Below, piece by piece: positions 20,411 to 62,064 of a DNA stretch of 64,000 nt (position 1 is the first letter of the stretch; the number at the start of each line of letters is the position of its first letter). The stretch comes from an uncultured Pseudomonadota bacterium (GTDB lineage Bacteria > Pseudomonadota > Gammaproteobacteria > Steroidobacterales > Steroidobacteraceae): assembly GCA_903884235.1 (NCBI GenBank), contig CAISEB010000023.1:62001-126000 (forward strand). The letters are read 5' to 3'. The notes under the pieces are model-generated. The model searched no databases. It was not told the DNA's origin and saw only the letters and a program-made list of their open reading frames with translations. The position numbers were made by a program, and so were the translations under genes.

Positions 20411-20414
20411 CGCC

Positions 20415-21413: not shown

Positions 21414-21415
21414 CC

Positions 21416-41462: not shown

Positions 41463-43163
41463 ATGACTGGAAGTGACGCGTTCCTGTCGCTGCGCGAGCG
41501 CATGCTTGCCGCCGGCACCCATCCCTCCGCCGATCCGCCGCGCGTCGAATGGCCGGCCGGGCTGCCGTTCAACTGGGCGCGCGACTATTTCGACTGGATC
41601 GCCGCCGGCAATGGTCAGCCGGCCCTGCGAGTGATCGACGACGCGGGCGCAGACCTGACCGTCAGCTACGCCGAGATTTCGCGCCGCTCCAGGCAGGTCG
41701 CGAACTTCCTGGCCGGGCACGGCGTCGGCAAGGGCGATCGCGTGCTGATCATGCTCGGCAACGTCGTGCCGCTGTGGGAGACGATGCTCGCGACGATTCG
41801 CCTCGGTGCGGTGATGATTCCGGCGACGACGCTGCTGCAGCGCACCGATCTGGAGGATCGACTGGAGCGCGGCCAGGTCAAGGCCGTCGTCACCGACGCC
41901 GCCTACGCCGAACGCTTCGATGGACTTCCGGCGGCACCGGTGCGCATCGCCGTGGGCGGCCGGCATCCCGGCTGGCACGCATTCGAAGACAGTGCGCAGG
42001 CCGGCGATGAGGACATCGGCCCCCAGACGCAGTCCGACGACCTGCTGCTGCTCTACTTCACCTCCGGGACCACCGCGCGGCCCAAGCTCGTCGCCCACAC
42101 CCACGCCAGCTACCCGGTCGGCCACCTTTCGACGCTCTACTGGATCGGCCTGCGTCCCGGCGACGTGCACCTGAACCTGAGCTCGCCTGGGTGGGCGAAG
42201 CACGCGTGGTCGTGCTTCTTCGCGCCATGGAACGCCGGCGCGACGATCATCGCGTACCAGTACGATCGCTTCAGTGCGCGGGCGCTGCTCGACCAGCTCG
42301 TCCGCTGTGGGGTGACGACGTTCTGCGCGCCGCCGACCGTGTGGCGGATGCTGATCCAGGAGGACCTCCGGCGCTGGCCGGTCAAGCTGCGCGAAGTCGT
42401 TGGTGCCGGGGAGCCCCTCAATCCGGAGGTCATCGAGCAGGTCCGTGCGGCCTGGGGCCTGACCATCCGCGACGGATTCGGCCAGACGGAGACGACCGCC
42501 CAGGTCGGCAACCCGCCGGGCGCGATCGTCAAGGCAGGCTCGATGGGCCGGCCGCTGCCGGGCTACGAGGTCGTCCTCGTCGCGCCGGACGGCGCCGTGG
42601 GGGACGAGGGCGAGATCTGCCTGGACCTCAGTCGACGGCCGGTGGGCCTGATGCAGGCCTATCTCGATGATCCCGACAAGACCGCCGAGGTGATGCGCGA
42701 CGGCTACTACCATACGGGCGATGTGGCCAGTCGCGACGCCGATGGATACCTGACGTACGTCGGGCGGATGGATGACGTGTTCAAGTCATCGGACTACCGG
42801 ATCAGCCCGTTCGAGCTCGAGAGCATCCTGATCGAGCACGCCGCCGTCGCCGAGGCTGCAGTGGTGCCGAGCCCGGATCCGATGCGCCTTGCGGTGCCCA
42901 AGGCCTTCATCTTGCTGCGCGCAGGGCATGAGCCGGATGCGGAAACCGCGCGATCCATCTTCCAGCACGTGCAGGCCCGGGTGTCGCCGTTCAAGCGCAT
43001 CCGCCGCATTGAGTTCGCGGACCTGCCCAAGACCATCTCCGGCAAGATCCGGCGCGTCGAACTGCGCAAGGGCGAGGTGGATCGGGTGTCGAGCGGCGCG
43101 CGCGGTCCACGCGAGTTCTGGGAGCAGGACTTCCCGGGTCTGCGCTCCGCGACATCTGGCTGA
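41463..43163 (+). CDS. AMP-forming acyl-CoA synthetase
   Basis: 566 residues. The P-loop is YFTSGTTARPKLVAHTH (about 200), the adenylation motif is GFGQTETT, then YYHTGDVA-x-RD and the final PKTISGKIRR with the catalytic lysine. Overall it is nearest the medium-chain (AcsM-type) and aryl-acid ligases. It activates a carboxylic acid to its CoA thioester in the cytoplasm. It is followed after six bases by the FIST protein gene, which suggests that the ligase and the sensor/kinase pair share a transcript. Confidence 0.92.
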   Translation: MTGSDAFLSLRERMLAAGTHPSADPPRVEWPAGLPFNWARDYFDWIAAGNGQPALRVIDDAGADLTVSYAEISRRSRQVANFLAGHGVGKGDRVLIMLGNVVPLWETMLATIRLGAVMIPATTLLQRTDLEDRLERGQVKAVVTDAAYAERFDGLPAAPVRIAVGGRHPGWHAFEDSAQAGDEDIGPQTQSDDLLLLYFTSGTTARPKLVAHTHASYPVGHLSTLYWIGLRPGDVHLNLSSPGWAKHAWSCFFAPWNAGATIIAYQYDRFSARALLDQLVRCGVTTFCAPPTVWRMLIQEDLRRWPVKLREVVGAGEPLNPEVIEQVRAAWGLTIRDGFGQTETTAQVGNPPGAIVKAGSMGRPLPGYEVVLVAPDGAVGDEGEICLDLSRRPVGLMQAYLDDPDKTAEVMRDGYYHTGDVASRDADGYLTYVGRMDDVFKSSDYRISPFELESILIEHAAVAEAAVVPSPDPMRLAVPKAFILLRAGHEPDAETARSIFQHVQARVSPFKRIRRIEFADLPKTISGKIRRVELRKGEVDRVSSGARGPREFWEQDFPGLRSATSG

Positions 43164-43169
43164 TCCCCA

Positions 43170-44321
43170 GTGACCGCGTCGGGCCAGACGATCCCTCGGT
43201 TCCACGTCCATGGGACGCCGGCCGAGGTCGCAGCCGGCGTCGCCGCGGCACGCGTGGACCGCGAGGCGCTCACCATCCTGTTCGTCTCGGCCGGATACGA
43301 TCCATCCGAACTCGGCGCCGCGCTCGTCGCGCAGGGCATCCATCACGCGGTCGGTGCCACCACCAGCCGGGTGATCGGCACCGAGGGGATCGGTGACACC
43401 GGCGTGACGGGCTTCCACCTGCCGCTCGGGCGCTTCGCTGCGGCCGACGTCGTGATCGAGGATGCCGCCTCGATCGGGCTGCCGGCGTTGCGCGAGGAGG
43501 TCCGCAAGCTGCGCAAGGCGCTGGATGGGCAGGCCGGCGCTGGCGGTGGCCACCTGTTCGCATTCCTGCTCGTCGACGCGGAGGCCCGCTGCGAGGAGCG
43601 CCTTGCCGCGCTGCTCGGCATGGAGCTGAACGGGGTCCCGCTGGTGGGCGGGTCCGCGGGCGACACCTATTTCAACGAATCGACGCGTGCACCTGCCAGC
43701 ACGCCGATCCTGTACCGCGGGCGCGCCTACAAGGGTGCCGCCGTCCTCTGCCTCGTGCGGTCGGAGACACCGCTCGTCGCGTACTGCCACAATCACTACG
43801 TCCCGACGGACCAGCGCATCGTCATCACGGACGCGGACCCTGCACGACGGCTGGTGCGCACGCTCGATGGGCGCCGCGCGCTCGACGTGTACGCGCGCAA
43901 GTGCGGATTCCGCAAGGCGCCACGGGAAAGTCTCGATTTTGCACCGTACCCGCTCATGATCCGCATCGGCGGTCAGTACTACGCGCGCGGGACCCAGCGG
44001 ATCTACGCGGATGGGACGCTGGAATTCGCATGCGCGCTCGAGACGGGCCTTGTCGCTGCCCTCGGACGGCCGGGCGACATGATCGCGAGTCTCGACGAGA
44101 TGTTCCGGGCGATGCGTGCCCAGATCGGCAATCCGGACCTCGTGATCGGCCTCGATTGCGCGGCGCGCACGGCCTACATGGAGCGCAGTGGCCTCACGGC
44201 AGGCATCGCGGGGCTGCTCGGGCGCAATTCGGTGGTCGGATTCGCCTCGCTCGGCGAGCAGTTCAATACGATCCACGCGAACAACTCATTCACCTGCCTT
44301 GGCATCGCGCCGTTCCGATGA
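43170..44321 (+). CDS. FIST-domain sensory protein, NosP-like
   Basis: 383 residues from GTG 43170. FIST_N spans about 35-225 (ILFVSAGYDPSELG, VGATTSRVIG, LVGGSAGDTYF) and FIST_C the rest, ending NNSFTCLGIAPF. FIST proteins bind small ligands; NosP members bind haem, sense nitric oxide and inhibit the co-encoded kinase NahK. Here the stop overlaps the kinase start (ATGA), as expected for a NosP-NahK pair. Several His residues could serve as haem ligand, but I cannot pick one. Without haem data, an amine- or amino-acid-sensing role is equally possible. Confidence 0.85.
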   Translation: MTASGQTIPRFHVHGTPAEVAAGVAAARVDREALTILFVSAGYDPSELGAALVAQGIHHAVGATTSRVIGTEGIGDTGVTGFHLPLGRFAAADVVIEDAASIGLPALREEVRKLRKALDGQAGAGGGHLFAFLLVDAEARCEERLAALLGMELNGVPLVGGSAGDTYFNESTRAPASTPILYRGRAYKGAAVLCLVRSETPLVAYCHNHYVPTDQRIVITDADPARRLVRTLDGRRALDVYARKCGFRKAPRESLDFAPYPLMIRIGGQYYARGTQRIYADGTLEFACALETGLVAALGRPGDMIASLDEMFRAMRAQIGNPDLVIGLDCAARTAYMERSGLTAGIAGLLGRNSVVGFASLGEQFNTIHANNSFTCLGIAPFR

Positions 44322-45748
44322 AGCGCCAGCCCCCGAAGCCCGCGCCTCGCCCCAAGCGCAAGCCCCGCGCCGCGCCGGCGGTGGACTCCACGCTCAAGCG
44401 CCTGCGTGCCGACAACAGGGCGCTGCGCAAGTCCGTGAAGGCGCTCATGGACCGGGTCGAGCGGTCCGTCGACGACCAGGGCAGCGCATTCAGCTGGTTC
44501 CAGGCGGCGGCGACGCTCGAGGAGACCGTCCGCCAGCGTACGGAGCAATTCGAGCTCCTGAACCTGCGCCTGAAACGCGAGCTGGAGTCGCGGCGCGCCA
44601 TCGAGCTTGCGCTCAAGCAGGCGAAGGAGGTTGCCGACCGCGCCAATGAGACCAAGACGAAGTTCCTCGCGGCCGCGAGCCATGACCTGCGTCAGCCACT
44701 GAGCTCGGCGCTGCTGTTCCTCGAGTCGATCGACGACCGCGCGATCACCGGAGTCGATCGCGACTACCTGCAGAAGTCCCGCGTCGCGCTGGCCTCGCTC
44801 AGCAACCTGCTCGGTACACTCCTCGACGTCGCGCGACTCGATTCCGGTTCCATCGAGCCGCAGTTCGCGGACTTTCCCGTGTCAGCCGTCCTCGACCGGA
44901 TCATGCCGGAGTTCGAGGGCGTTGCCCGTTCGGCGGGTATCGACCTGCGGTTCGCGGCGTCGAGCGTATGGGTGCATTCGGACATGTACCTGCTCGAGAC
45001 CGTGCTGCGAAACCTCATCAGCAATGCGATCCGCTATACGCCGAACGGCACGGTGCTGGTGGGATGCCGTCGCCGCAAGGACGGCCTCGTGATTGCCGTC
45101 CACGACACCGGCATCGGCATCGACGCGGAGCATCTGGAGGCGATCTTCACCGCCTACTACCAGGTTCCGGCGGGTGGCCGGGGGCGCTCGCAGGGTATCG
45201 GTCTCGGCCTGTCGATCGTGGAGCGCATCGCGCTGTTGCTGAAGCTCGAGCGCGAGGTGGTTTCAGAGCCGGGTCGCGGCTCGATGTTCGCGGTGAAGGT
45301 CAGGCTCGCCCGGCGACCCGGCCGCGCGCTGGCGGGTCGCCCGACTGCCGCGGCCGCCGCTCCGGAGTGTCTGGCGCGGCCGCTGTCGATCGTCGTCATC
45401 GACGATGATGCGGGCGTCCGCCAGGGCCTCGCCGCGACGCTCGCGAAGTGGGGTCACCGGGCCATCGCCGCGGAGAGCGCGACGGACGCCGTCGTCCAGC
45501 TGATCTCGGCGGACCTCACGCCGGACCTCGTGATCAGCGACTACCACCTCGCGGACGGCGTCAAGGGAGATGCCGCGTACGACGAGGTGGCCCGCGAGTT
45601 CGACCGACCGCCGGCGTCGATCATCATGACCAGCGACCCCGATCCGAAGCTCCACGAATCGCTGCGCACGCGCGGAGTTCCGCTGGTGCCGAAGCCGCTG
45701 AACCCGTCACGGCTGCGTGCCCTCCTGGCACGGATCCCGCCTCAGTAG
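44318..45748 (+). CDS. Hybrid sensor histidine kinase, NahK/ErcS'-like
   Basis: 476 residues, no membrane segment. A basic N-terminus and coiled coil (about 25-110) lead to HisKA with H122 in SHDLRQPLSS, HATPase_c with the N-box LRNLISNAIRYTP (N232), G-boxes DTGIGI and GIGLGLS, and a C-terminal receiver with D408 in LVISDYH. PAS domains present in the Pseudomonas homologue are missing. It is translationally coupled to the FIST protein and ends tail-to-tail with the LuxR-type regulator (7 bp overlap), its probable output. Confidence 0.9.
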   Translation: MKRQPPKPAPRPKRKPRAAPAVDSTLKRLRADNRALRKSVKALMDRVERSVDDQGSAFSWFQAAATLEETVRQRTEQFELLNLRLKRELESRRAIELALKQAKEVADRANETKTKFLAAASHDLRQPLSSALLFLESIDDRAITGVDRDYLQKSRVALASLSNLLGTLLDVARLDSGSIEPQFADFPVSAVLDRIMPEFEGVARSAGIDLRFAASSVWVHSDMYLLETVLRNLISNAIRYTPNGTVLVGCRRRKDGLVIAVHDTGIGIDAEHLEAIFTAYYQVPAGGRGRSQGIGLGLSIVERIALLLKLEREVVSEPGRGSMFAVKVRLARRPGRALAGRPTAAAAAPECLARPLSIVVIDDDAGVRQGLAATLAKWGHRAIAAESATDAVVQLISADLTPDLVISDYHLADGVKGDAAYDEVAREFDRPPASIIMTSDPDPKLHESLRTRGVPLVPKPLNPSRLRALLARIPPQ

Positions 45749-46395
45749 CTGCTCCTGTCGAGCAGACGGCGCCCTTCGATGCCGGCCTGCACCCGGTTGG
45801 AGACGCCGAGCTTGCGCAGGATCGCCGAGACGTGCGCCTTGACCGTGATCTCGCTGATGCCGAGGGCCCGCGCGATGGTCTTGTTGGATTGACCGCTCGA
45901 CAGCAGTTCGAGGACCCGCTTCTGGCGCAGCGTCAGGTCCTCGCGCGGGGCGGACCGGGCATCCCGCAGTGCAGCAACAACCTCCGATGGCATGTAGGAC
46001 CCGCCTGACAGGATGACCTGCAGCGCATTGACGAGGACCTGTCGCGGGGCGGATTTCGGCACGTAGGCATTGGCGCCCCCCAGGATCACGTCGTGCATGA
46101 TCCGGGGGTCATCGACCGCGGAGACGACGACGACCGGCGTACCCGGGGCCGCCCGGCGCAGCGCGCTCAGGCACGAGAGGCCGCTGGCGCCTGGCAGGTT
46201 CAGGTCGAGCACGACAAGGTCGAACGGGTCGCGCCCGCCGACCGCATCCAGGACGTCCTGCTGTGTGCCGGCCTCGCTGATCTGCGCGCCGGGACAGGCC
46301 TGTGGAACGACGGCGCGCAGTGCGTCGCAATAAAGAGGGTGGTCGTCCGCGATCAGTACGCGGCGCGGTGGGGCGTCGGGGAGGGCGTCGGTCAT
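45742..46395 (-). CDS. LuxR/NarL-type response regulator, ErbR (AgmR)-like
   Basis: 217 residues. The receiver (about 12-130) has the acidic pair in IADDHPLY, phospho-acceptor D64 in VVLDLNLPG and a conserved Lys in YVPKSA. The HTH is LTLRQKRVLELLSSGQSNK continuing to ITVKAHVSAILRKLGV. AgmR/ErbR regulators control PQQ alcohol dehydrogenase genes in Pseudomonas. Placed between the kinase and the divergent aldehyde dehydrogenase, it probably activates the downstream aldehyde and amine oxidation genes. Confidence 0.92.
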   Translation of the reverse strand: MTDALPDAPPRRVLIADDHPLYCDALRAVVPQACPGAQISEAGTQQDVLDAVGGRDPFDLVVLDLNLPGASGLSCLSALRRAAPGTPVVVVSAVDDPRIMHDVILGGANAYVPKSAPRQVLVNALQVILSGGSYMPSEVVAALRDARSAPREDLTLRQKRVLELLSSGQSNKTIARALGISEITVKAHVSAILRKLGVSNRVQAGIEGRRLLDRSSY

Positions 46396-46547
46396 CCGGT
46401 CGGGTCCTGCCGCGGGTCGCGGGACGTGATACCAAAGTATTAGGCCCGCATGGTCCCTCTGTCTTATACAACACGCTGCGGTGCGCCGCGATACTCAAGC
46501 CTCACGACCGGCGGTCGACCCCGTCCGTATCCAGGCAGGAGAGCCCC
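46396..46547. promoter_or_regulatory. Divergent control region between response regulator and aldehyde dehydrogenase
   Basis: The 152 bp are locally AT-richer (46425-46475) than their surroundings. ATACCAAAGTAT at 46429-46440 is an imperfect palindrome (ATAC/GTAT around CAAA), and TATACA at 46465-46470 could be a -10 element for the aldehyde dehydrogenase, although no good -35 is found at 17 bp. It is the likely target of the adjacent regulator. Confidence 0.35.
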
Positions 46548-48095
46548 TTGAACACCGCAGTCCAGAACCCCTCCGCTTCCGCATCGTCGTTGGCGAACGA
46601 TCTGTCCCAGATCAGCTCCGCGAACAAGGCCTTCCTCGCGCGCAAGCATCAGCTACTGGTCGATGGCGCGTGGGTGGCAGCGGCCAGCGGCAAGACCTTC
46701 GAGGTGCGCGACCCGTCAAGCGATGCCGTGGTCACCCACTGTGCCGAGGGCGATGCAGTCGACGCCGATCGTGCGGTCGCCGCGGCCCGCCGCGCATTCG
46801 AACAGGGCGAGTGGGCGACGATGAAGCCGGTGGATCGTGAGCGCCTCCTGCACCGTCTTGCGGATCTGCTCGAGCAGCATGCGGACGAACTCGCCGAGCT
46901 CGAGGCCATCGACAATGGCAAGTCCGTGGTCATGGCCCGCTACGTCGACATCAAGCACGCGATCGATGTGTGGCGCTACATGGCCGGATGGCCGACCAAG
47001 CTCGAGGGCAAGACGCTGCCGATCTCGGGCAATCTGGTGCCGGGACAGGAATATGCGGCATTCTCGACGCGTGAGCCGATTGGCGTGGTCGCCGCGATTA
47101 TCGCCTGGAACTTCCCGCTGCTTCTTGCGACCTGGAAGAGCGCGCCGGCTCTTGCGGCCGGATGCACCGTGGTGCTGAAGCCTGCGGAGGAGACGCCGCT
47201 GACGGCGATCCGGCTCGGCGAGCTGATCACGGAGGCGGGGTTCCCGAAGGGCGTGTTCAATGTAGTGACCGGGGCGGGTCCTTCGGCAGGTGCGGCGCTG
47301 GCAGCGCATCCTGGCGTCGACAAGGTCACGTTCACCGGCTCCACGGAGGTGGGCCGCCTGATCGTCAAGGCGTCCGCCGGCAACATGAAGAAGGTCACGG
47401 TCGAACTCGGTGGCAAGTCGCCGGTGATCGTGCTCGACGATGCCGACGTTGAGGCTGCGATCGCGGGTGCGGCAGGCGCGATCTTCTTCAACCAGGGCCA
47501 GGTGTGCTGCGCCGGCTCGCGGCTGCTCGTCGCGCAACGGCACTTCGACCAGGTCGTCGAGGGCGTCGCGGGAGCCGCCAAGTCCATGAAGATGGGCCCC
47601 GGCCTCGACACGACCGCGCAGATGGGACCGCTGGTCTCATCGATCCAGCGCGAGCGTGTGTCGCGTTACCTGCAGGAAGGCCTCGCCGACGGCGCGCGTG
47701 CGCCCGTCGGCGGCAAGGCGCTGAAGACGGCCGGCTACTACGTCGAGCCCACCGTCTTCACCCACGTCAACGACAAGATGTCGATCGTCCGCGAGGAGAT
47801 CTTCGGGCCGGTCGTCGTCGCGCAGCCATTTGACGACATCGCTGACATCGCGCGCCTCGCCAACGACTCGATCTACGGACTCGGGGCGAGCATCTGGACT
47901 CGCGATGTCGGCAAGGCATTCCGCCTCGCCTCGAAGATCCGTGCGGGCAGCGTCTGGGTCAACTGCCACACGGTGCTCGACCCGAGCATGCCGTTTGGCG
48001 GCTATAAGCAATCGGGATGGGGTCGCGAGCTGGGCGGCGAGGCAGTCTATTCGTACCTCGAAAGCAAGTCCTTGTGCATCAATATCACGGGATGA
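46548..48095 (+). CDS. NAD(P)-dependent aldehyde dehydrogenase
   Basis: 515 residues from TTG 46548, chosen for CAGGAGAG just upstream and because the protein then begins in the usual place; no ATG fits. Catalytic C320 lies in NQGQVCCAGSR, the general base E286 in VELGGK, and N188 of WNFP stabilises the intermediate. The sequence is of the phenylacetaldehyde/betaine aldehyde dehydrogenase group. It follows the regulator as exaC follows the regulators in Pseudomonas, and would oxidise the aldehyde released by the amine dehydrogenase encoded downstream. Confidence 0.93.
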   Translation: MNTAVQNPSASASSLANDLSQISSANKAFLARKHQLLVDGAWVAAASGKTFEVRDPSSDAVVTHCAEGDAVDADRAVAAARRAFEQGEWATMKPVDRERLLHRLADLLEQHADELAELEAIDNGKSVVMARYVDIKHAIDVWRYMAGWPTKLEGKTLPISGNLVPGQEYAAFSTREPIGVVAAIIAWNFPLLLATWKSAPALAAGCTVVLKPAEETPLTAIRLGELITEAGFPKGVFNVVTGAGPSAGAALAAHPGVDKVTFTGSTEVGRLIVKASAGNMKKVTVELGGKSPVIVLDDADVEAAIAGAAGAIFFNQGQVCCAGSRLLVAQRHFDQVVEGVAGAAKSMKMGPGLDTTAQMGPLVSSIQRERVSRYLQEGLADGARAPVGGKALKTAGYYVEPTVFTHVNDKMSIVREEIFGPVVVAQPFDDIADIARLANDSIYGLGASIWTRDVGKAFRLASKIRAGSVWVNCHTVLDPSMPFGGYKQSGWGRELGGEAVYSYLESKSLCINITG

Positions 48096-50729: not shown

Positions 50730-52430
50730 ATGACGGCGGACACATTCATGCCGAGCCTGGTCACCGGCGACCGTGGACGACCGCTGCTCGAGCTCACGGT
50801 TGACGCGGTGCTGCGCGCGGCGGTTGCCGCAGATCCGGGCCGCCCCGCCCTGATTGCACCGCAGCAGGGCGTGCGCCTCTCCTACGCGCAGCTCGATGCC
50901 GAGGTTGAGCGGCTCGGGCGCGGATTCCTCGCTGCCGGTCTCGTGCCTGGCGACCGCATCGGCATCTGGGCGCCCAATCGTCCAGAGTGGTTCCTAACGA
51001 TGTTCGCCGCCGCCCGTGCCGGGCTCGTGCTGGTGAACGTCAATCCTGCCTACAGGACTTCCGAGCTTGAATTCGCCCTGCGCCACGTCGGCTGTCGGGC
51101 ACTGGCCTATCCGGCACAGTTCAAGACCAGCGACTACGCGGGCATGCTCGCGGGGCTCATTCCCGAGCTCGCTTCCGCGCAGCCCGGCCGCCTGTCGGCG
51201 GCGCGGTTCCCGGAGCTTCGGCTGCTGATCCAGATCGATGGCGAGCCCGCTCCGGGCACGATGGGATTCAAGGACGTGGCCGCGCTCGGCGCGCAGTCCG
51301 GCGGTGAACCGCTGGCGGGCATATCGGCGCGCGTCGGTTACCTCGATCCGTACAACATCCAATTCACGAGCGGCACGACCGGCTTGCCCAAGGGCGCGAC
51401 GCTCACTCACTTCAATATCGTCAACAATGGCTATTTCGTTGGCGAAGCGCTGCGGCTGACGCCGGATGATCGTGTCTGCATCCCGGTACCGATGTACCAC
51501 TGCTTCGGCATGGTTCTCGGCGTCCTCGCGGCGGTGACGCATGGTGCGACCGTCGTGTACCCGAGCGAGGCCTTCGACCCGCTCGCGGTTCTCGAGACCG
51601 TCTCGGTCGAAAGCTGCACGGTCCTGCATGGCGTGCCGACGATGTTCATTGCCGAACTCGAGCACCCGAGGTTCCGGGAGTTCGACCTCTCGTCGCTGCG
51701 CACGGGGATCATGGCCGGATCGCCGTGCCCCGTGGCGGTGATGAAGCGCGTGGTCTCCGAGATGCACATGCCGGAGGTGACCATCTGCTACGGCATGACC
51801 GAAACGAGCCCGGTGTCCTTCCAGAGCAGTACCGACGATCCGCTCGAACGACGGGTCAGCACGGTCGGGCGCGTCCATCCCCATGTCGAGGTCAAGATCG
51901 TCGATGCGGCCGGCGAGGTCACGCCCCGTGGCGTTCCAGGGGAGCTGCTCACCCGCGGCTATAGCGTGATGACCGGCTACTGGAACGATCCCGAGCGCAC
52001 GCGCGATGCCATCGATGGCGGCGGCTGGATGCATACCGGCGACATCGCGGTCATCGATGCCGAGGGATACTGCAACATCGTCGGTCGGGTGAAGGACATG
52101 ATCATCCGCGGCGGCGAGAACATCTCGCCACGCGAGGTCGAGGAGTTCCTCTACCGCCATCCGGCCGTGCTCGATGTGGCGGTGGTCGGTGTGCCGGACA
52201 GCAAGTATGGCGAGGAGGTCTGTGCCTGCATCCGCCTGCGCGAGGGCACGGCAGTCACGGAGGAGGAGATCCGCGACTTCTGCCGAGGGCAGATCGCCCA
52301 CTACAAGGTCCCGCGCTACGTGCGCTTCCTTGACGGATTTCCGATGACGGTGACCGGAAAGGTGCAGAAGTTCCTGATCCGTGAGCAATTGCGTGCAGAT
52401 CTCGGCCTCGTCGAGGAACAGCACGCGTGA
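50730..52430 (+). CDS. AMP-forming fatty/aryl acyl-CoA ligase, first gene of the qhp operon
   Basis: 566 residues from ATG 50730; the frame is open to 50619, but that part reads as non-coding. P-loop [31 protein letters not shown] and the final [10 protein letters not shown] lysine motif are all present. It resembles FadD3-like and medium-chain acyl-CoA ligases. The stop overlaps the qhpG start (GTGA), so it is translated with the amine dehydrogenase genes and probably activates the carboxylic acid formed from the amine via the aldehyde. Confidence 0.92.
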
Positions 52431-53719
52431 CGCACGTGGCCGTCATCGGCGGTGGTCCTGCCGGCTGCGCGGTCGCACGTCGACTTGCGCTCGGCGGAAT
52501 TCGAGTGACGCAATTCGTCTCCGGTACGGTCGCCGGGCGCGAGGGCCTGTCTAGGCGAACCTGTGAATTGCTGCGTGAGGATGGATTCGGGGATCTCGCC
52601 GCCGTGCTGACCGGGCCCGTTCCGCGGGGGGGGCACTGGGGGTCAGGTCGCAGTGTCGCGGGCGAGGAATGGCTGGCAGACCGGGAGCAACTCGCCGCCG
52701 AGATGCGAGCCGGGGCCGCCGCCGCCGGCGCGGTGATGCGCGACGATCTCATCGAGGGAATTGCCGGCGACTATCCGGAATTCCGGGTCCGCACCCGATC
52801 CGGAGCCGAGGTCACGGCGACCGCGGTCGTCGATGCGCGTGGTCGGCGTGGCGCCGAGTTACACGGGCCGACCCTGCTCGCGCTCGGCCAGGGATTCCGT
52901 ACTGCGGCTCCTCTGCCTTCCGGCACCGCCATCCACCCGATGTCCTGGGGATGGTGTTGGATTGTCAGGAACGGCCCACAACTGTGGATCCAGCTCGCCG
53001 GGCAGCCGGGCGATGGTCGCCCGGAGGGCTGGCTCGCGAGAGCGGCCCGCGAGCTGCCGGAACTCGTGTCGGCCCTTAAAGGCGCGGTTTCGATCGGTGA
53101 GCCGGTCGCGCGGCCATCGCATGCGCGGCGCAGCATTGCGCCTGCCCAGCCTGGCTTGATCAGAACAGGGGATGCTGCGGTCGGCCTCGATCCCTTGTCC
53201 GGGCAGGGCGTCTACGAGGCGCTGCGTGGCGCCCGGGTGGCCGCAGCGGCAGTCCGGTCCCTGATCGATGGGGTTGATCCGGCGGTCGTGACGCGCTTCC
53301 TGACGGAACGGGACGATGCGCTGTGGGAGCGGGTCGTGTCGACGGCGGCGGCCTTCTATGCCGAAAACACCGGTATCGGGGCGTTCTGGTCGAACACGGC
53401 CGCAGCATACCGGGCCCTCGAGCGTTCCCCGGTCCCGATCGCCACTGCGATCGAACGTCGGCCGGTACTCGATGGCGATCGAATCCGGGAGCGGGACGTG
53501 CTGGTCACAGCTGCGCAGCCGCGCGGGGTCTGGCAGGTTGACGGCGTATCGGTCGTCGCTCTAATTCACTATATTCAGCGCGTCGGGAACGCGACGCCCA
53601 GCGCTGCCGCTGCCGAGCTCGCTCGCCCGCAGGCGGCGGTTCTGGCCGCCGCGCGCTGGTTGCGCGAGTCCGGCGCCTGGCCGGATCGCGTGTCCCAAGT
53701 CATTTCCGCAGGAGGTTGA
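52427..53719 (+). CDS. qhpG: FAD-dependent tryptophan dihydroxylase for amine dehydrogenase maturation
   Basis: 430 residues from GTG 52427. The FAD Rossmann motif [18 protein letters not shown] opens the protein and the second FAD motif [22 protein letters not shown] is near residue 250, as in flavin monooxygenases of the halogenase/p-hydroxybenzoate hydroxylase fold. QhpG hydroxylates the Trp of QhpC twice so that the tryptophylquinone can form. The assignment rests on fold plus its place next to qhpADCBFE. It acts in the cytoplasm on the crosslinked precursor; the C-terminal extension (about 340-430) may bind QhpC. Confidence 0.88.
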
Positions 53720-53723
53720 ACCC

Positions 53724-55307
53724 GTGTCGATCGGTGCCCCGAGATTGCCCTGGATGAGCGCCTCCCTACTCGCACTGCTCTGCTTCGCCGCGAACGCGGT
53801 TCAGGCCGCCGAGGCGCCGGATGGCCAGGCGCTGGTGCGGACGTATTGCAGCGGTTGCCACCTCGAGCACGATGGTGTATTCGAGCGCATCAGCTCGATT
53901 CGCAAGACGCCGGAAGGCTGGACGATGACGTTGTTCCGGATGCACAACGTCCATGGACTTGCGCTGCCGGAGGAGGCGAGCGATGCGATTACCCGCTATC
54001 TCGCGGATACGCAGGGACTTGCACCCTCCGAGACTGCGCCGTCGCGCTTTGCCCTCGAGCGTCGACCGAACGCGAAGGACCTGGACCTCGGGCCCGACCT
54101 CGCGCAGATGTGTGGTCGATGCCATTCGCTGGCCCGCGTCGCGCTGCAGCGGCGTGATGCGGATGACTGGCTGAAGCACATGCATTTCCACGTCGGCCAG
54201 TTCCCGTCGCTCGAGTACCAGGCCAGCGGTCGCGATCGCCCGTGGTGGGACATCGCGACAAAGGAACTGCCGCCGAAGCTCGGTGCACTGTTCCCGCTGC
54301 ACACGCAGGCGTGGTCAGACTGGAACGGACGCACGCACCGCGAGCCAACTGGGCACTGGGTTGTCGTCGGGCACGAGCCGGGCGGTCGCGACCTGGTCGG
54401 GACTGCCGACATCGCCTCGGACGGCAAGGGCGGGTACACCGCGCGTTATCGGCTGCGGGACACCGCAGGACGTGACGTCGCCGGCGACTCGCATGCCCTC
54501 CTGTATACCGGTTACGAGTGGCGTGGCCGCGGCGCGCTCGGTGGCGTCGCCTCGCGCGAGGTCTTCGCCCTGTCCGAGGACGGCGTACGAATGAGCGGCC
54601 GTTGGTTCGACCCCGAGCACTCGGAAGACGGTGGCGACTGGACCGCTGTGCGCGCCGATGCGCCTGCGCAAGTCGTGGCGGTCTTGCCGCGCGCGATGAA
54701 GGCCGGCGCGTCCGGCACGGTCACCATTGTCGCAACCGGTGTCGGCCCGGCGTCGTCCGTGTCGCTCGGCACTGGCGTCACCGCGAAGGTCGTTCTCGCC
54801 GACGACGGCGTGATTCAGGCCGTCGCGGAGGTGGCCGCCGATGCGACGACGGGCACGCGCACGGTTTCCGTCGGCCCGGCAGCCGGAACTGGCGCGTTCG
54901 CTGTGTACCGCAAGATCGACCAGGTCGACGTACAGCCTTCCTACGCGATCGCACGAGTCGGGGGCGGGAAGGTTCCCCCTGTGACGGCGCAGTTCGAGGC
55001 ACTCGCGAGCGCTCGCGACGCCGCCGGCGTTCTCGTTCCGCTTGGGCCGGTCCCGGCCGAATGGAGCACGGCGCCGTTCGATGCCGAGGCTGCGCGTACG
55101 CACGACGAGAAATTTGGTGGTTCGCTCGATGCCGCCGGGCGCTACCATCCGGCGGGCGCGGGCCCCAACCCGGTCCGGGAATTCTCAGGCAACAACACGG
55201 CGAACCTCAAGGTTCACGCGCGCGTTGCTGACGGTGCGAGTCGCCTCGACGGCGAGTCGCATCTGATCGTGACCGTGCAACGCTGGATCACGACGCCGAT
55301 TTACTAG
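53724..55307 (+). CDS. qhpA: Quinohemoprotein amine dehydrogenase, alpha subunit (dihaem)
   Basis: 527 residues from GTG 53724 with a perfect AGGAGG upstream. A signal peptide ends near VQAAEA (about 30). Two haem-c motifs, CSGCH (42-46) and CGRCH (130-134), form the cytochrome domain; three beta domains follow (LREKYR-like barrel, then two Ig-like folds from about 305). It accepts electrons from the quinone cofactor of the gamma subunit and passes them to periplasmic electron carriers. Length fits known alpha subunits. Confidence 0.96.
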   Translation: MSIGAPRLPWMSASLLALLCFAANAVQAAEAPDGQALVRTYCSGCHLEHDGVFERISSIRKTPEGWTMTLFRMHNVHGLALPEEASDAITRYLADTQGLAPSETAPSRFALERRPNAKDLDLGPDLAQMCGRCHSLARVALQRRDADDWLKHMHFHVGQFPSLEYQASGRDRPWWDIATKELPPKLGALFPLHTQAWSDWNGRTHREPTGHWVVVGHEPGGRDLVGTADIASDGKGGYTARYRLRDTAGRDVAGDSHALLYTGYEWRGRGALGGVASREVFALSEDGVRMSGRWFDPEHSEDGGDWTAVRADAPAQVVAVLPRAMKAGASGTVTIVATGVGPASSVSLGTGVTAKVVLADDGVIQAVAEVAADATTGTRTVSVGPAAGTGAFAVYRKIDQVDVQPSYAIARVGGGKVPPVTAQFEALASARDAAGVLVPLGPVPAEWSTAPFDAEAARTHDEKFGGSLDAAGRYHPAGAGPNPVREFSGNNTANLKVHARVADGASRLDGESHLIVTVQRWITTPIY

Positions 55308-55320
55308 GGTTGCTGTCCGC

Positions 55321-56769
55321 ATGACTCAAATAGCCGAGCGACTCGAGTTCAATGCCTCGAACGGACACGTCGTGCGTGGCGACGGCGCGGCTTACATGCT
55401 GCACGTCCCGACCACCGCCGTTTTCGGTGTCGACGACCTGGGTCTTGCGGTGATCGAGGCTTTCCGCGTGAGCGGCGGGCGTTCCGTCGACGAGGTCGTC
55501 GCGGAGCTCGTTGGCCGATTCCCGCCCGATCGCATCCGCGCGTTTGCCGCTGAGCTCGGCAAGCTCGAGGTGCTGCAGCGATCCGGCTCGTTGAAGCCGA
55601 TCAATCCCACCAGTGCGCGGCTCACGCAGGTTCCCCTCAGTACGATCGTCCTGAACGTCAACACCGGTTGCAACCTCGCGTGCACGTACTGCTACAAGGA
55701 GGATCTGGCGAAGCCTGCTGCAGGCAAGCGCATGGACTTCGCCACGGCGGCACGTAGCGTCGACATGCTGCTGGAGGTGGGCGCACAGCGCGAGCGGGTC
55801 AACGTCGTGTTCTTTGGGGGCGAACCGCTAACGAACGTGCCGCTGATCCGGGAGGTCGTGGGGTACGCGGAGGATGTCGTTGCCCGCGCCGGCAAGAAGG
55901 TCGACTTCTCGTTGACGACGAACGCCACGCTGCTCACTCCGGAATTGATCGACTGGTTTGACGCCCACCGCTTTGGCATCTCCGTGTCGATGGACGGACC
56001 TCAGGCGGTCCACGACCGCAACCGCAGGACGGTCGGCGGCAAGGGCACCTACGACGTGGTCGCGCGCAAGGTCCGGATGCTGCTCGAGCGCTATCGTTCG
56101 CGCCCGGTCGGAGCGCGCGTGACGATCGGCTCGGGGCAGGTCGACGTCGAGGCGATTCACGCCCATCTGCGAGGCGAGCTGGGGTTCCATGAGGTCGGTT
56201 ATGCGCCGATGACCGGCTCCGATACTGCAGGCGAGGCATTGTCAGAGCAGGAAATGATCGATGTCCATGCGGCTTTCGAGCGGCTTGGTGAACACTATCT
56301 TGCCGAGGCACTCGCTGGCCGCAACAACGGCTTCTCGAACATGCACCAGCTGATGACCGACCTGCACGAGGGTCGGCGCAAGTCCGTGCCCTGCGGTGGT
56401 GGGGTCGGACTCCTTGCGGTGGATGCCGGAGGCGACCTCAACCTGTGCCACCGCTTCACGGGATCGGACTTGCCGACCTTCGGGAACGTCGCCACCGGAA
56501 TCGATGTCGGTGCACTCAGCTCCTTTGTCGAAAAAGCCGTGGATCGCGAAGGCACCCACTGTGCGACCTGTCGGATCCGCAACATCTGCTCCGGCGGTTG
56601 CTACCACGAGTCCTACGCTCGCTACGGCGACCCGCATCACCGAACCTATCACTACTGCAACCTGCTCCGCCGCTGGGTGGACTTTGGCGTGCGCGTGTAC
56701 GCCGAGATCCAGCGCGGGAACCCCGAATTCCTTTCACGACACCTCGAGCCGAGGAGTGCCACCGCATGA
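55321..56769 (+). CDS. qhpD: Radical SAM/SPASM enzyme making thioether crosslinks in QhpC
   Basis: 482 residues. The radical SAM cluster is C117, C121, C124 in [22 protein letters not shown] follows. The SPASM region (about 355-460) holds [37 protein letters not shown] and YCNLL for two further [4Fe-4S] clusters. The N-terminal 100 residues are the part that would recognise the peptide. It forms Cys-to-Asp/Glu thioethers within the QhpC precursor. Its stop overlaps the qhpC start (ATGA), linking production of enzyme and substrate. Confidence 0.96.
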
Positions 56770-57086
56770 GCGAACTGAAGCCCACCAACCGCAAGGCCGA
56801 ACTGCTGCTGAAGGCGGCCGCCGAAGGGCCCATCGATGAAGTCGTCGCGATGGATACCGTCGCCGGCTGCGCGACGACGTTCGACCCGGGTTGGGAAATC
56901 GATGCATTCGGCGGCGTCGCCTCGCTGTGTCAGCCGATGGAGGCTGACCTGTATGGGTGCTCCGACCCCTGCTGGTGGCCTGCCCAGGTTCCAGACACGA
57001 TGAATACCTACCCAAACTGGTCCGACGGCAAGCCCTCGGCGCAGAACGACTGGCGCGAGCTCGACGCCGTGTTTCCGAAGAAGTGA
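56766..57086 (+). CDS. qhpC: Quinohemoprotein amine dehydrogenase gamma-subunit precursor (ribosomal peptide substrate)
   Basis: 106 residues. The first 28 form a leader (helical, [11 protein letters not shown]); by alignment with known gamma subunits, the mature chain begins at M29. All crosslink residues are present at the known spacings: C35-E44, C55-D61 and C69-D77 for the three thioethers, and C65-W71 for cysteine tryptophylquinone, in the strictly conserved region [19 protein letters not shown]. The mature chain of 78 residues is the usual length. QhpD crosslinks it, QhpG hydroxylates W71, QhpE removes the leader and QhpF is thought to export it. The short ORF is easy to miss in annotation. 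Confidence 0.97.
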
Positions 57087-57094
57087 GGACGACC

Positions 57095-58186
57095 ATGCAC
57101 ATGACGAAGTTGAGGGCGCTGGCGTTCGCGCTGTCGGCCGTTGCCGGGCTGGCGGTCGCTGCGACGGTCCGTGCTGGTGACCTCCTGGTGACCGGGGCGA
57201 AGCCCGACCGACTCTATGTGATCGATGCCGAGAAACGGGCTGTCAAATCCGAATTCCGGATTCCCGGTGCGAACGGAATCGTTGGCGCGATCATTCCATC
57301 TCCGGATGGCAAGGTTGCCTACGTCGTCGTCAACAAGATGGAGAGCATTTCCGGGATCGACCTCAAGACCGGCAAGGAGGTGTTCCGCGCGGACCTGTCC
57401 AAGCCCGGTGAGCGCGTCAAGAATTTCTTCGCGCTCGACGTCACGTCCGATGGAAAGGAACTGATCGTCTATGAGCTGCCGACTCTGCTGAAGCCGAGCG
57501 AGTACCAGGTCGAAGATCCGCGCTTCGCGGTGTTCAAGACCAATGCTGGGCTGCACGCGAAAGTATCGCGCAGCTTCCCGGCGCCGCGGCGCCTGCACAT
57601 GATCCTGATGCGTCCGGGCGGCAAGACGTTCTACGCGATCGGCTTCGATCTGTACGAGTACGAGACGGCCACCGGCAAGCTCGTTGGTACTCATGGCATC
57701 CAGAAGTGGCAGCTTCCGGCCCATTCGCAGCCGGACCTGCTTGCCTTCTGGCCGGTCACCGAGCCGACGGGCGTATTCACGAGTCCGGTGATCTCAGAAG
57801 CGACCGCTGGAGGCGCGGCGGCGCTCAAGACCGGCATGATGGTGCTTGACGTCCGCGCCGGCACGCTCGAATTCAACGATTTCGAGGACACCTCTGCGCT
57901 GATCTTTTCGACCGTGCTGTCGCCGGACCGCAAGTTTGCCTACGGCGTGTATTCCACGCTCACCAAGGTCGACATGGCGAGCCACACGCTTGCGAAGCGG
58001 GTGCCTGTCGACCATACGTTCTATTCGATCAATGTCGCGACGGATGGCCACGAGGTGTATATCGCCGGCGCGATGTGCGATGTCGGGTTCTACGACCCGA
58101 CCAGCCTGGAGCGGCGCGCCAACCTGAAGCTTCCTGGCTGCGGCGACCAGTCGCTTGCGAGCCTCAGGGTCATTCCTGCGCGCTGA
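57095..58186 (+). CDS. qhpB: Quinohemoprotein amine dehydrogenase, beta subunit
   Basis: 363 residues from ATG 57095 (GAGGA seven bases upstream). A signal peptide ends ATVRAGD (about 28). The rest is a YVTN-type beta-propeller (LVTGAKPDRLYVIDAE, PSPDGKVAYVVVN, SPDRKFAYGVYSTL), expected to be seven-bladed. It holds the active site together with the gamma subunit in the periplasm. Order C-B with a nine-base gap is as in known qhp operons. Confidence 0.95.
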   Translation: MHMTKLRALAFALSAVAGLAVAATVRAGDLLVTGAKPDRLYVIDAEKRAVKSEFRIPGANGIVGAIIPSPDGKVAYVVVNKMESISGIDLKTGKEVFRADLSKPGERVKNFFALDVTSDGKELIVYELPTLLKPSEYQVEDPRFAVFKTNAGLHAKVSRSFPAPRRLHMILMRPGGKTFYAIGFDLYEYETATGKLVGTHGIQKWQLPAHSQPDLLAFWPVTEPTGVFTSPVISEATAGGAAALKTGMMVLDVRAGTLEFNDFEDTSALIFSTVLSPDRKFAYGVYSTLTKVDMASHTLAKRVPVDHTFYSINVATDGHEVYIAGAMCDVGFYDPTSLERRANLKLPGCGDQSLASLRVIPAR

Positions 58187-58205
58187 CGGCGACACCATCT
58201 ACGGC

Positions 58206-59855
58206 ATGCTCCGGCCGCATCTGCGGCCGGAATTGCCGGTTCTGGCGGGTACCCTGCTGCTCGGGTTGCTGGTCGCGGCACTGTCTGCCGCGCAGCCGCT
58301 CCTGACTCGCATGCTGATCGACGACGGGCTCCTCGGCCGTCACTACGAGCGCATCGTCTACGCCTGTGTAGGCATGCTCGCGCTGGCCTTTGCCGGCACG
58401 CTACTCGGCGGCTGGCATCGGGCCATTTACGTTCGCGCATCAGGGCGCGTTCTGTTCTCCCTTCGCGTCCGGATCTATTCGCACCTCCAGCACGTGTCGC
58501 CCCGGCGGCTCGCCAGCATCCCAACCGGCGACCTCGTGACTCGCCTCGACGGTGACGTCGCTGAAGTACAGCGGTTCGGCACCGACTCGGCGGCCGCACT
58601 CATCGGTAGCGTTCTGTCCCTGCTCGTCGTCGGCGCGGTCATGCTGCGCCTCTCCGGGCGCCTGTCGCTGCTCGTGTTCGGGCTCATGCCGCTGCAGCTG
58701 CTCGTCCGGCATCTGGCGCGGCGGCGGATTGAAACTGCGACGCGAGGGGTGCGCGAGGCCGCCAGCGGGATCAGCGCGTTTTTGATCGAGACGCTGGCCG
58801 GAGCCCGGGCGGTGCAGGGTGCGGCGGCTGCGGAAATTGAGGCCTCGCGCCTCTCGCGCCTCGGCGAGTCATATCTCACGCGAGTGGTTCGCTCGCAGCT
58901 CGTGGGCTACGCAACCAGCGCCAGTGCCTCGCTGCTTGGCAGCATCTCGACTTCGGCAGTTTTCCTGCTGGGAGGGTGGTACGTTCTCGCCGGCGAGCTC
59001 AGCCTAGGCACGCTCGTTGCCTATGTGGCGTACTTGGGGCGCAGCGCAGGGTCTGCCTCCTCCATTGTCGGCCTCTATACGGGCTACCAGCGCGCAAGGG
59101 TGAGCCTGGTGCGGGTCGGGGATTTGCTCGACTTACCGGTGGTGCGCGAAGAGCTGGATGGCGCTCCGATCCCCGATGACGCGCGAGGCGATCTCCTGCT
59201 ACAGAGCGTGACGGTGCGGCTCAGCCGTGAGCAGCGCGACGTCCTCCAGGCGGTGGACCTGGTGATTCCGGCGGGAACCAAGGTCGTCCTCGGAGGTGCC
59301 TCAGGCGCCGGCAAGTCCACCTTTGCAGACTTATTGCGACGGTTCATCGATGCCGATACGGGCACGGTGATGCTGGATGGGCAGCCGCTCCCCAGCTACC
59401 GGCTGGCCGACGTACGACGCCGCATCGCCGTCGTCGAGCACTCGCCGGTGCTATTCCGCGCCTCCATTCTCGACAACCTGCGGTATGGCTTCCCGGATTG
59501 CGACGAGAAGGCGGTGCGCGAAGTGGCTTGCGATGCGGGAATTGATGAATTCATCCAGTCATTACCAGAGGGTTATGCGACCCAGATTGGCGAGGGCGGG
59601 GCCGATCTCTCTACGGGGCAGCGCCAGCGCATCGCACTCGCCCGGGCGCTGCTCGCTAGGCCGCTCGTGGTAATCCTCGACGAAGCGACGAGCGGACTGG
59701 ACGCGCCGACCGCGCGCTCGATACAACGGGCGGTGGACATCGGATTCGCGAGCCGGACACGCATCGTCATTACCCATCGGACGGCCGACGTCGAGGGCGC
59801 GGACATGCGTCTCGAGCTCGATGACGGTCGCCTGACGCATGTAGTGGCGGACTGA
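58206..59855 (+). CDS. qhpF: ABC transporter (fused TMD-NBD), QhpC exporter
   Basis: 549 residues from ATG 58206; TTG 58155 would overlap qhpB and is also possible. Six membrane helices (about 15-300) precede an ATPase domain with Walker A GGASGAGKS, signature LSTGQRQR, Walker B LVVILDEATS and the switch His in ITHR. The layout is that of half-size homodimeric exporters. In qhp operons it is held to move the crosslinked QhpC to the periplasm, because the leader is not a Sec signal. Confidence 0.92.
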   Translation: MLRPHLRPELPVLAGTLLLGLLVAALSAAQPLLTRMLIDDGLLGRHYERIVYACVGMLALAFAGTLLGGWHRAIYVRASGRVLFSLRVRIYSHLQHVSPRRLASIPTGDLVTRLDGDVAEVQRFGTDSAAALIGSVLSLLVVGAVMLRLSGRLSLLVFGLMPLQLLVRHLARRRIETATRGVREAASGISAFLIETLAGARAVQGAAAAEIEASRLSRLGESYLTRVVRSQLVGYATSASASLLGSISTSAVFLLGGWYVLAGELSLGTLVAYVAYLGRSAGSASSIVGLYTGYQRARVSLVRVGDLLDLPVVREELDGAPIPDDARGDLLLQSVTVRLSREQRDVLQAVDLVIPAGTKVVLGGASGAGKSTFADLLRRFIDADTGTVMLDGQPLPSYRLADVRRRIAVVEHSPVLFRASILDNLRYGFPDCDEKAVREVACDAGIDEFIQSLPEGYATQIGEGGADLSTGQRQRIALARALLARPLVVILDEATSGLDAPTARSIQRAVDIGFASRTRIVITHRTADVEGADMRLELDDGRLTHVVAD

Positions 59856-60664: not shown

Positions 60665-61717
60665 CTAGTGCGGTGCGGCCACGAGTACCGTGAACGTGCC
60701 GGGCTTCAGCTCCGGACGTGGCTTCGGGTGTTCCGGGGTTGCTGCAGGCGTCGCCCCGAACTCCGATGTGACGAGGTACACGCGGCGCGTCGCCGGGTCG
60801 TATGCCATCGTCCTCGCGCCAAGCTGCGTTGCAAGAGATTGCAGCACCTTGTAGTGCCCGCCGGCGTCTCGTCCCACGATGGTCAGTGTTCCATCACGGT
60901 TGGAACTGAACGCGAGCCCCGTCGCCGGATCGACTGCGGCGGCGTCGGGCCCTAGGCCGATCGCAACTTTCGCGACTTGGCGTCCGGTGCGCGCGTCGGT
61001 GATCGCCATGACCTTGTGGTCACACACCGAGAAGAGGTGCTGCTGCGCCGAGTCCAAAGCAAGCCCACTCGGACTGTCGCAGCCTGGTGTCGTCCAGACA
61101 TCCGTCACTTTCAGGGCCTTCATGTCGATGCGCACAATCTGGCCAGGTTCCGACTCGATGTTGAGGAATACATGTCCGGCGCCGTCGTCAGCGCCGAACT
61201 CCGGCGTCCCAGGCACTTTCAGGGTGGTGACGGGGGCGAGGGTCTTGGCATCGAACACGCTGATGTCATGGCTGTGGCCATTGAACGTGAGCAACTGCCG
61301 GGACGCTGCTACGTAGAGAATGGTGTCCGGATCGTCCCCCGTGATCGGCACCGTGCGGATCGCTGCCAGCGTCTCGAGGTCGAACTCAGTGATGGAGTTC
61401 CCCTTGCCGTTGCTCGTGTAGCCGCGCTTGAGGTCCTGGGCCAGCGCGACGCCATGGACACCGTGAGTCTCGGGGATGTGTCCGACGATCGTGCCGGTCT
61501 TGACGTCGAGGACATCAACCCGCTCCGCACGCGTTATGAAGAGGCGATTGCCGGCCGCATCGAACGTCAGGTAGTCCCAGCCACCGGCGCCGCCCACATT
61601 CCATCGTGCGACGATCGAGTAGTCGGCTTCGACCGCCGCCGAGGCGAGCGCCGACGATGCGGCGCCAAGCGTAAGCACGGAGACCAGAAGTGCGAGAACG
61701 CAGCGGGAGAAATGCAT
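60665..61717 (-). CDS. Secreted YVTN/NHL-type beta-propeller protein
   Basis: 350 residues from ATG 61717, which starts a clean signal peptide (VLALLVSVLTLGAASSALASA). Repeats read as propeller blades: NRLFITRAERVDVLDVKTG, YTSNGKGNSITEFDLET, LLTFNGHSHDISVFDAKT, HLFSVCDHKVMAITDARTG, LAFSSNRDGTLTIVG. It resembles YncE-like proteins, often encoded next to TonB receptors. No catalytic residues are known for this group; a binding role in the periplasm is likely. Convergent with qhpE and divergent from the last TonB receptor. Confidence 0.88.
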   Translation of the reverse strand: MHFSRCVLALLVSVLTLGAASSALASAAVEADYSIVARWNVGGAGGWDYLTFDAAGNRLFITRAERVDVLDVKTGTIVGHIPETHGVHGVALAQDLKRGYTSNGKGNSITEFDLETLAAIRTVPITGDDPDTILYVAASRQLLTFNGHSHDISVFDAKTLAPVTTLKVPGTPEFGADDGAGHVFLNIESEPGQIVRIDMKALKVTDVWTTPGCDSPSGLALDSAQQHLFSVCDHKVMAITDARTGRQVAKVAIGLGPDAAAVDPATGLAFSSNRDGTLTIVGRDAGGHYKVLQSLATQLGARTMAYDPATRRVYLVTSEFGATPAATPEHPKPRPELKPGTFTVLVAAPH

Positions 61718-62064
61718 GAGGGATGGCCTGCAAAATCGGCGCGATGTGCCGGACGCAGGAGTGTACCGATCGGCTCTGGGTGGCGTGCAACCCGTTTTTC
61801 CGTTTGCACGCCGATGCGTCGGCGTAGACGGCTTCGTGACGGTTTCGCGACGAATTCTGTGAAGTATTGAAAAGCCGCGGCGGCCATTCGCTGCGGGTCG
61901 ACGCGGCGAGCTCGGCAAGCCGGCACTTAGCGCTGTTGTAACGGCGCCGCAATGAATGCCTGTCACATTTCGCGCCCTCGACGCGTGGCGAATCGGCGTC
62001 GTCCATTCCTGGTCGCGCTGCAACGGGCTCGGTGCGGTGCAGTCCCAAACTCCGGAGATCCTTC
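61718..62064. other. 347-bp divergent intergenic region
   Basis: The space separates the propeller gene (-) from the TonB receptor (+) and must hold both promoters. AT-richer patches lie at about 61790-61800 and 61855-61872. I find no convincing -35/-10 pair, operator repeat or small ORF; GGAGATC at 62053-62059 is the receptor's ribosome-binding site. Confidence 0.5.

Follow-up and report, generated by a model that had tools for sequence, protein, structure and literature searches.

The closest described relative of the locus analysed here is the NosP-NahK(PedS1)-ErbR(AgmR) set, which stands with the exa/ped genes of Pseudomonas. The window, defined as the whole 64,000-nucleotide stretch of DNA that was analysed, is part of contig C23 of genome G000, an uncultured bacterium of the Steroidobacteraceae with a 4.12 Mb assembly that is 95% complete, and it likewise holds a tandem of a FIST sensor gene and a hybrid histidine kinase gene together with a convergent LuxR-type regulator gene. 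As in the NosP-NahK-ErbR sets, quinoprotein oxidation genes and an aldehyde dehydrogenase gene lie nearby and the putative operator sequence is alike, but the target in the window is a tryptophylquinone enzyme, quinohemoprotein amine dehydrogenase (Qhp), unlike that of the sets with exa/ped genes. The coupling of the FIST-kinase-regulator set to the Qhp genes is real, conserved and family-wide, and it is fairly probable that the set forms a phosphorelay serving as the local switch of an amine-oxidation regulon.

According to passages of PMC12997753, the pedF promoter of P. putida is less active on ethanol and on two further alcohols when PedS1, the NahK orthologue, is lost, but more active on isoprenol and isopentanol. 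The NosP-NosK-NosR system of B. pseudomallei resembles the window in that its kinase has no recognised sensor domain and the FIST partner gene is adjacent, and NosK is inhibited by its neighbour NosP; the output is a degenerate HD-GYP protein and not a DNA-binding regulator as in the window (excerpts of PMC12570481). In the CrbS/CrbR (MxtR/ErdR) acetate system the regulator is of the same subfamily as that of the window, whereas CrbS has a transmembrane SLC5 domain and the targets are acs and actP. Excerpts of PMC5715377 place the CrbR motif, ACTU, just upstream of an RpoD promoter, with a core such as TACTAAGGTC that resembles the TACYAAAGTA found in the window. According to the same excerpts the ACTU site of the actP unit, TAATACTAAGGTCGTCT, shares the core with GTC in place of GTA, as does the cheV site, which is merely predicted, and four point mutations in the acs ACTU site abolished activation.

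Linkage of the FIST-kinase-regulator set to the Qhp genes

QhpA was found above cut-off in 15 and FIST in 36 of the 296 genomes of the order, and 11 of the 15 QhpA genomes also had FIST (Fisher p 2e-8 over the 296 genomes, kinship being ignored). The survey of qhpA genomes for adjacent FIST-kinase pairs that the earlier note had proposed placed FIST within 16 kb in nine of the 15, on the same contig and strand as QhpA (G000, G058, G079, G106, G110, G164, G190, G207 and G253). QhpA and FIST sit on different contigs in G134, and the FIST of G085 lies elsewhere in the genome and did not reach 40 bits against that of the window. The qhp genes follow the TonB-dependent receptor gene directly or behind a second acyl-CoA ligase gene (ligase 2), in one direction, in eight of the nine linked genomes. 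Scanning a species-genome collection for two peptide patterns yielded 55 stretches, of which 20 were confirmed, all titled as metagenome-assembled genomes and one as Steroidobacteraceae; ten of the 20 are most likely from genomes already under G handles. A first acyl-CoA ligase gene (ligase 1) precedes FIST in 18 of these loci, the convergent regulator is present in 17, the other three being broken by contig ends, a TonB receptor lies downstream in 16 (two of these by weak, short matches) and QhpG is visible in 12. Since gene order is kept in many genomes and co-occurrence is this pronounced, the linkage is more than chance.

A survey of 398 genomes of the phylum gave six further QhpA genomes at E 1e-30, five of which have FIST, and none of the six outside the order has a linked FIST. 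QhpA was present in 26 plasmid records, and in the five plasmid qhp stretches that were read no match to the FIST protein, kinase or regulator of the window was found. The FIST-Qhp association is therefore confined to one family.

Genes were called by Pfam and NCBIfam profile matches. The quinohemoprotein amine dehydrogenase operon is complete in the window, with QhpA, B, C, D, G and E identified by model, and the features of the locus are as follows.

41463..43163 (+), acyl-CoA ligase 1 (AMP-binding), PF00501 207 bits
43170..44321 (+), FIST sensor protein, NosP-like, PF08495 FIST 87.2 bits and PF10442 FIST_C 56.8 bits
44318..45748 (+), hybrid histidine kinase, soluble-looking, with HisKA, HATPase_c and C-terminal receiver (Pfam)
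45742..46395 (-), NarL/LuxR-type response regulator, ErbR/ErdR-like, with receiver and GerE helix-turn-helix
46430..46439 (+), predicted operator TACCAAAGTA (TACCAAAGTATTAG), between regulator and aldehyde dehydrogenase
46490..46495 (+), -10-like box GATACT, 60 nt downstream of the operator start
46548..48095 (+), aldehyde dehydrogenase, likely TTG start (read from sequence), PF00171 585 bits
48192..50618 (+), TonB-dependent receptor, PF00593 and PF07715
50619..52430 (+), acyl-CoA ligase 2, NF009233 832.7 bits (cut-off 832)
52427..53719 (+), QhpG flavin monooxygenase, NF049967 248.6 bits (cut-off 240)
53724..55307 (+), QhpA alpha subunit, TIGR03908 538.8 bits (cut-off 274)
55321..56769 (+), QhpD radical SAM maturase, TIGR03906 above cut-off
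56766..57086 (+), QhpC gamma subunit, PF08992 151 bits
56957..58186 (+), QhpB beta subunit, longest open reading frame (ORF), TIGR03907 above cut-off, residues 75-406 matched
58155..59855 (+), ABC exporter, QhpF-like (name inferred from position), PF00664 and PF00005
59860..60510 (+), QhpE subtilisin-like protease, NF049966 200 bits (cut-off 165)

The earlier note had described a FIST gene coupled to a hybrid kinase gene by ATGA and a convergent LuxR-type regulator. Both genes, their coordinates and the ATGA overlap of FIST stop and kinase start were verified in the sequence, as was the regulator, the 3′ end of which overlaps that of the kinase gene by 7 nt. The aldehyde dehydrogenase gene and the qhp operon that it had placed next are both present, with the correction that the receptor and ligase 2 genes intervene before qhpG. 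Ligase 1 ends 6 nt 5′ of the FIST gene and probably heads one operon with FIST and kinase. The kinase is 476 amino acids long, with H122 within the box SHDLRQPL and 117 residues preceding the H-box motif, and no PAS or other recognised sensor domain was found in it by Pfam, whereas Pseudomonas-like kinase ORFs measure 863-875 amino acids. For the aldehyde dehydrogenase the closest model was phenylacetaldehyde dehydrogenase NF045735 (685 bits, below the cut-off of 850). The true start of QhpB probably lies 3′ of 57086.

A predicted operator and control of the pathway

In the mechanism proposed here the FIST protein would bind a signal and set the activity of the soluble hybrid kinase, and phosphate would presumably pass to the response regulator, directly or via a histidine phosphotransfer (HPt) protein. 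The phosphorylated regulator would then bind TACYAAAGTA about 60 nt upstream of the -10-like box and switch on the aldehyde dehydrogenase gene together with the receptor, ligase and qhp genes that follow it, and the same site may also serve the regulator's own divergent gene. The genes, the kept phosphorelay motifs, the gene order, the site and its presence at moved aldehyde dehydrogenase genes are the parts of this scheme with support in the sequence.

The candidate 10-nt motif TACYAAAGTA between the regulator and the next promoter is the new element. Sequences upstream of the regulator were compared in 18 genomes, namely the window and all 17 confirmed loci with a regulator, and TACYAAAGTA or a near variant was found between the regulator and the next promoter in all 18 clusters using the expression TAC[TCG][TA]A[AGC]GTA, which was composed after inspection of the same sequences. 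A -10-like ATACT[CG] lay 57-61 nt beyond the motif in 18 of 18. Identity in the common island that holds the motif was 0.88-0.97 compared with 0.38-0.60 elsewhere among 12 representatives, the rows being aligned on the island, which favours it. The matrix made from the 18 sites scored 31.7 bits at window position 46426, and the next distinct place in the 64 kb reached only 8.5.

Sites that had not gone into the matrix accompany the relocated aldehyde dehydrogenase gene of G058, G079, G164, G134, L095 and L099. Exact TACCAAAGTA stood at the start of the relocated gene in G079, G164 and G134, the matrix found a site at the gene start in L035/L100 (25.5 bits), L095 (28.9) and L099 (25.8), and L034/L094 had a weaker variant (15.2). 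Control loci without the module (570,193 bases) gave no match of at least 19 bits and two of at least 14, the best of which, 18.5, is close to the weakest true sites at 17.5-17.8. Exact TACYAAAGTA occurred twice in the own assembly, compared with five matches of a reversed control pattern, and it is therefore the position of the motif and not its count that is evidence; one of the two exact sites lies at this promoter. A conserved operator-like motif is thus predicted to connect the regulator with the promoters of aldehyde dehydrogenase and receptor-qhp, and its sharing among gene starts suggests that the regulator turns these genes on.

Several observations weigh against a relay that switches the whole regulon. 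The motif was first spotted by eye and the expression fitted afterwards, and no site was found before ligase 1 in the window. In G164 and G134, where qhpG and the genes behind it are separated from receptor and regulator, no site of at least 8 bits was found before qhpG (L039 and L037, respectively); the relay may therefore govern aldehyde dehydrogenase and receptor but not qhp in these two genomes, the motif tracking the aldehyde dehydrogenase and not always qhp. In G085 a site (L032:9933-9950, 25.7 bits) lies about 70 nt upstream of the ORF for the aldehyde dehydrogenase, followed by receptor and qhpA, and no such regulator was found in this genome at E 1e-20. Among the six QhpA genomes without linked FIST a close regulator is present in G134 only (364 bits), the best match in the other five being at most 125 bits or none; one of the five, G097, has QhpA and showed neither FIST, a close regulator (best 104 bits) nor a site in its stretch.

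The separated qhpG genes and the G085 site fit an explanation by gene neighbourhood only or by partial control, in which aldehyde dehydrogenase or other genes are the regulator's targets and qhp answers to a different regulator. The same explanation draws on the exact sites in the own assembly being no commoner than the reversed control, and on NosP relays elsewhere, which are reported to act via HptB, RsmA or c-di-GMP. The lack of a site before the separated qhpG raised the standing of this explanation and lowered that of the local switch, yet it is improbable, as receptor and qhp follow the site in one direction in eight of the nine linked genomes, this promoter has one of only two exact sites of the own assembly, and the site accompanies the aldehyde dehydrogenase on relocation. 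Direct control of qhp by the relay is likely on this sequence evidence, and the relay probably controls the pathway in view of the linkage, the conserved motif and the search of the 95% complete assembly, in which no QhpR-like AraC gene was found.

With this predicted operator, the ErbR/AgmR site of the ped cluster also becomes open to test. Three genomes of one genus (G353, G357 and G441) are taken to be Pseudomonas because model searches identified ped-type genes in G357 (PedF, PQQ_ABC_bind) and in G441 (PedC, PQQ_CXXCW). In all three genomes the FIST, kinase and regulator genes share the window's convergent arrangement, and in G353 and G441 a gap of about 1.1-1.2 kb separates kinase and regulator. 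G441 has a site in front of its CXXCW-ErbR genes and G357 has one at the corresponding place; in G353 the site lies 470 nt upstream of ErbR (19.5-20.5 bits for the three). The ped cluster of G357 holds four TACCAARGNNNTAG sites by an expression fitted afterwards, compared with none in 100 dinucleotide shuffles; they stand near the starts of the pyrroloquinoline quinone (PQQ) alcohol dehydrogenase and PedF genes (same direction) and of the ABC-binding-protein and CXXCW-ErbR genes (reverse). ErbR would presumably bind this site in Pseudomonas. A clear site was absent in G599, G470 and the Paracoccus and Ruegeria sets. The words 'binding motif', 'inverted repeat', 'consensus' and 'operator' do not occur in a 2026 ped review, subscription papers on ped promoters being outside the scope, and a text search of PMC5436829 for motif words gave none.

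Names of the components and the signal of the FIST protein

The FIST protein scored 236.7 bits with the NosP equivalog NF041558 (cut-off 450), and the kinase 312 bits with NF041831 (cut-off 1500) and 352 with the near_NosP model NF041832 (cut-off 400), all below cut-off. The labels ErcS, MxtR, NahK, ErbR and ErdR on the compared genomes are our own, given from position, length and score. In a kinase-core tree, from which four rows lacking the H-box pattern were left out (two labelled MxtR and two other Pseudomonas-like), 12 qhp kinases formed their own clade (100/100) outside NahK, ErcS and MxtR. A grouping of the qhp kinases with NahK alone was weakly rejected (approximately unbiased test, p-AU 0.037). 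The regulator tree, rebuilt without two far outgroups with long branches and without L072, a near-copy, set the qhp and ErbR regulators together on the same side of a branch supported at 63/50. Orthology of the window's regulator to ErdR/CrbR (NF041830) is not favoured, as it scored 137 bits against a cut-off of 390 and G190 has a separate ErdR/MxtR-like pair elsewhere with a better ErdR (233 bits); no second match was found in the own assembly at E 1e-28. The recognition helix of the window's regulator is close to that of ErbR: HVS is common to qhp and ErbR rows while ErdR and NosP-linked rows have HVT or HIT, and NRVQA occurs in ErbR rows and five of the seven qhp rows shown, NRTQA in one ErdR row and one qhp row.

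The likeness to NosP-NahK-ErbR claimed in the earlier note thus stands for the convergent layout, the ATGA overlap, the similar predicted operator and the recognition helix. Strict names were withheld because FIST and kinase miss their cut-offs, the kinases form their own clade and the branch joining the regulators to ErbR has support of only 63/50; the set would work like NosP-NahK-ErbR but is not filed under that name. In the same way, the joining of a conserved control module to a tryptophylquinone enzyme is borne out by the stable Qhp linkage and the operator-like motif, but not as NahK/ErbR orthology.

Both FIST domains, N and C, are present in the FIST protein, and its AlphaFold2 model (pLDDT 87.1, unsure at 363-369) matched structures of FBXO22, which we take to hold a FIST domain, at E 3.5e-6 with a TM score of only 0.45-0.48. 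The next-best solved folds were cyclic amide hydrolases and chorismatase at low TM scores of 0.32-0.37, and a search of solved structures by sequence gave nothing of note. FIST was reportedly put forward originally as a binder of small ligands, amino acids among them.

A true haem-based nitric oxide (NO) sensor like NosP, the idea of the earlier note, which would tie amine oxidation to NO or redox state, gains from the NosP model match and from H209 and H369, which align with His columns kept in 8/9 and 9/9, respectively, in each group (qhp rows and NosP-like loci). NosP also controls adjacent kinases elsewhere, as told in parts of PMC12570481 and PMC11784011. The His match is no test, however, since the haem ligand of NosP is not given in the available passages, and the window's protein is far under the equivalog cut-off and 30-31% identical to two Pseudomonas-like NosPs. 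Furthermore, the Cys of GCTTAGE and a Tyr, each present in 9/9 FIST proteins of NosP-like loci, are lost in 9/9 qhp rows. Such a sensor is possible, yet rather unlikely.

A FIST protein that responds to the pathway's amine, aldehyde or acid, making the relay a substrate-induced switch, is a plausible if tentative alternative. It accords with the tie of the module to catabolic genes (two CoA ligases, aldehyde dehydrogenase and receptor) and with the small-molecule enzymes that follow FBXO22 among the folds, although this fold likeness is weak, no ligand was seen and NosPs of similar layout are reported to bind haem. A substrate-linked small molecule is accordingly somewhat more likely to be the signal than NO or haem. 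A wider reading is more doubtful: FIST-kinase-regulator sets would serve across proteobacteria as interchangeable controllers of periplasmic quinone-dependent oxidation and share a single operator language (TACYAARGTA and its GTC cousin), the FIST of the qhp branch having switched from gas or haem to a product of amine oxidation. If the relay acts as proposed, FIST relays would gain a direct transcriptional output on catabolism.

Other regulators at qhp loci

The plasmid qhp operons have gene sets like that of the window but differ in their regulators, with AraC (QhpR-type) proteins in two Paracoccus stretches and one Leisingera stretch, and sigma-54 Fis-type and helix-turn-helix proteins of unstated kind at the Cupriavidus and P. 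nitroreducens qhp genes. These AraC proteins score at least 148 bits among themselves and 177-237 against one in L080. Genome G000 has six AraC genes, none on C23, and the best of these reached 50-56 bits against the AraC proteins from the qhp loci of Paracoccus and Leisingera. Neither the 95% complete assembly nor the window, searched with the AraC pattern of PROSITE, yielded a QhpR-like AraC gene, in agreement with the earlier remark that no AraC-type QhpR is visible. The pattern matches of L042 and L088 belong to an overlong ORF that overlaps qhpG, those in L072, L090 and L092 are located at least about 8 kb upstream of FIST, and others are in L074, L075 and L077.

Homologues of the plasmid sigma-54 regulators were found neither in the window nor in the stretches of the family; such homologues stand in L077 and L079. 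At least three unlike kinds of regulator thus occur at qhp loci, namely AraC, sigma-54 Fis-type and the FIST-kinase-regulator set (window; L077, L079, L080, L226-L230), and the last, if it governs qhp as predicted, would be a third kind beside the AraC and sigma-54 types.

Related sets were also seen beside other genes. One Paracoccus pantotrophus strain (L101/L226) has a FIST-kinase-regulator set by a PQQ alcohol dehydrogenase gene on pPAN1 and qhp with AraC on pPAN2. Among the L102 and L104 loci, the set adjoins xanthine dehydrogenase-family genes in Ruegeria, and in Azospirillum the genes of a FIST-kinase pair follow those of an aldehyde dehydrogenase and a DUF779 protein.

Elsewhere in the window, 60665-62023 (-) encodes a protein weakly like a PQQ-catabolism beta-propeller and QhpB, and 19157-23038 holds two genes like subunits of 2-oxoacid:ferredoxin oxidoreductase and, after them, one for a pyridine-nucleotide oxidoreductase that carries a 4Fe-4S domain.

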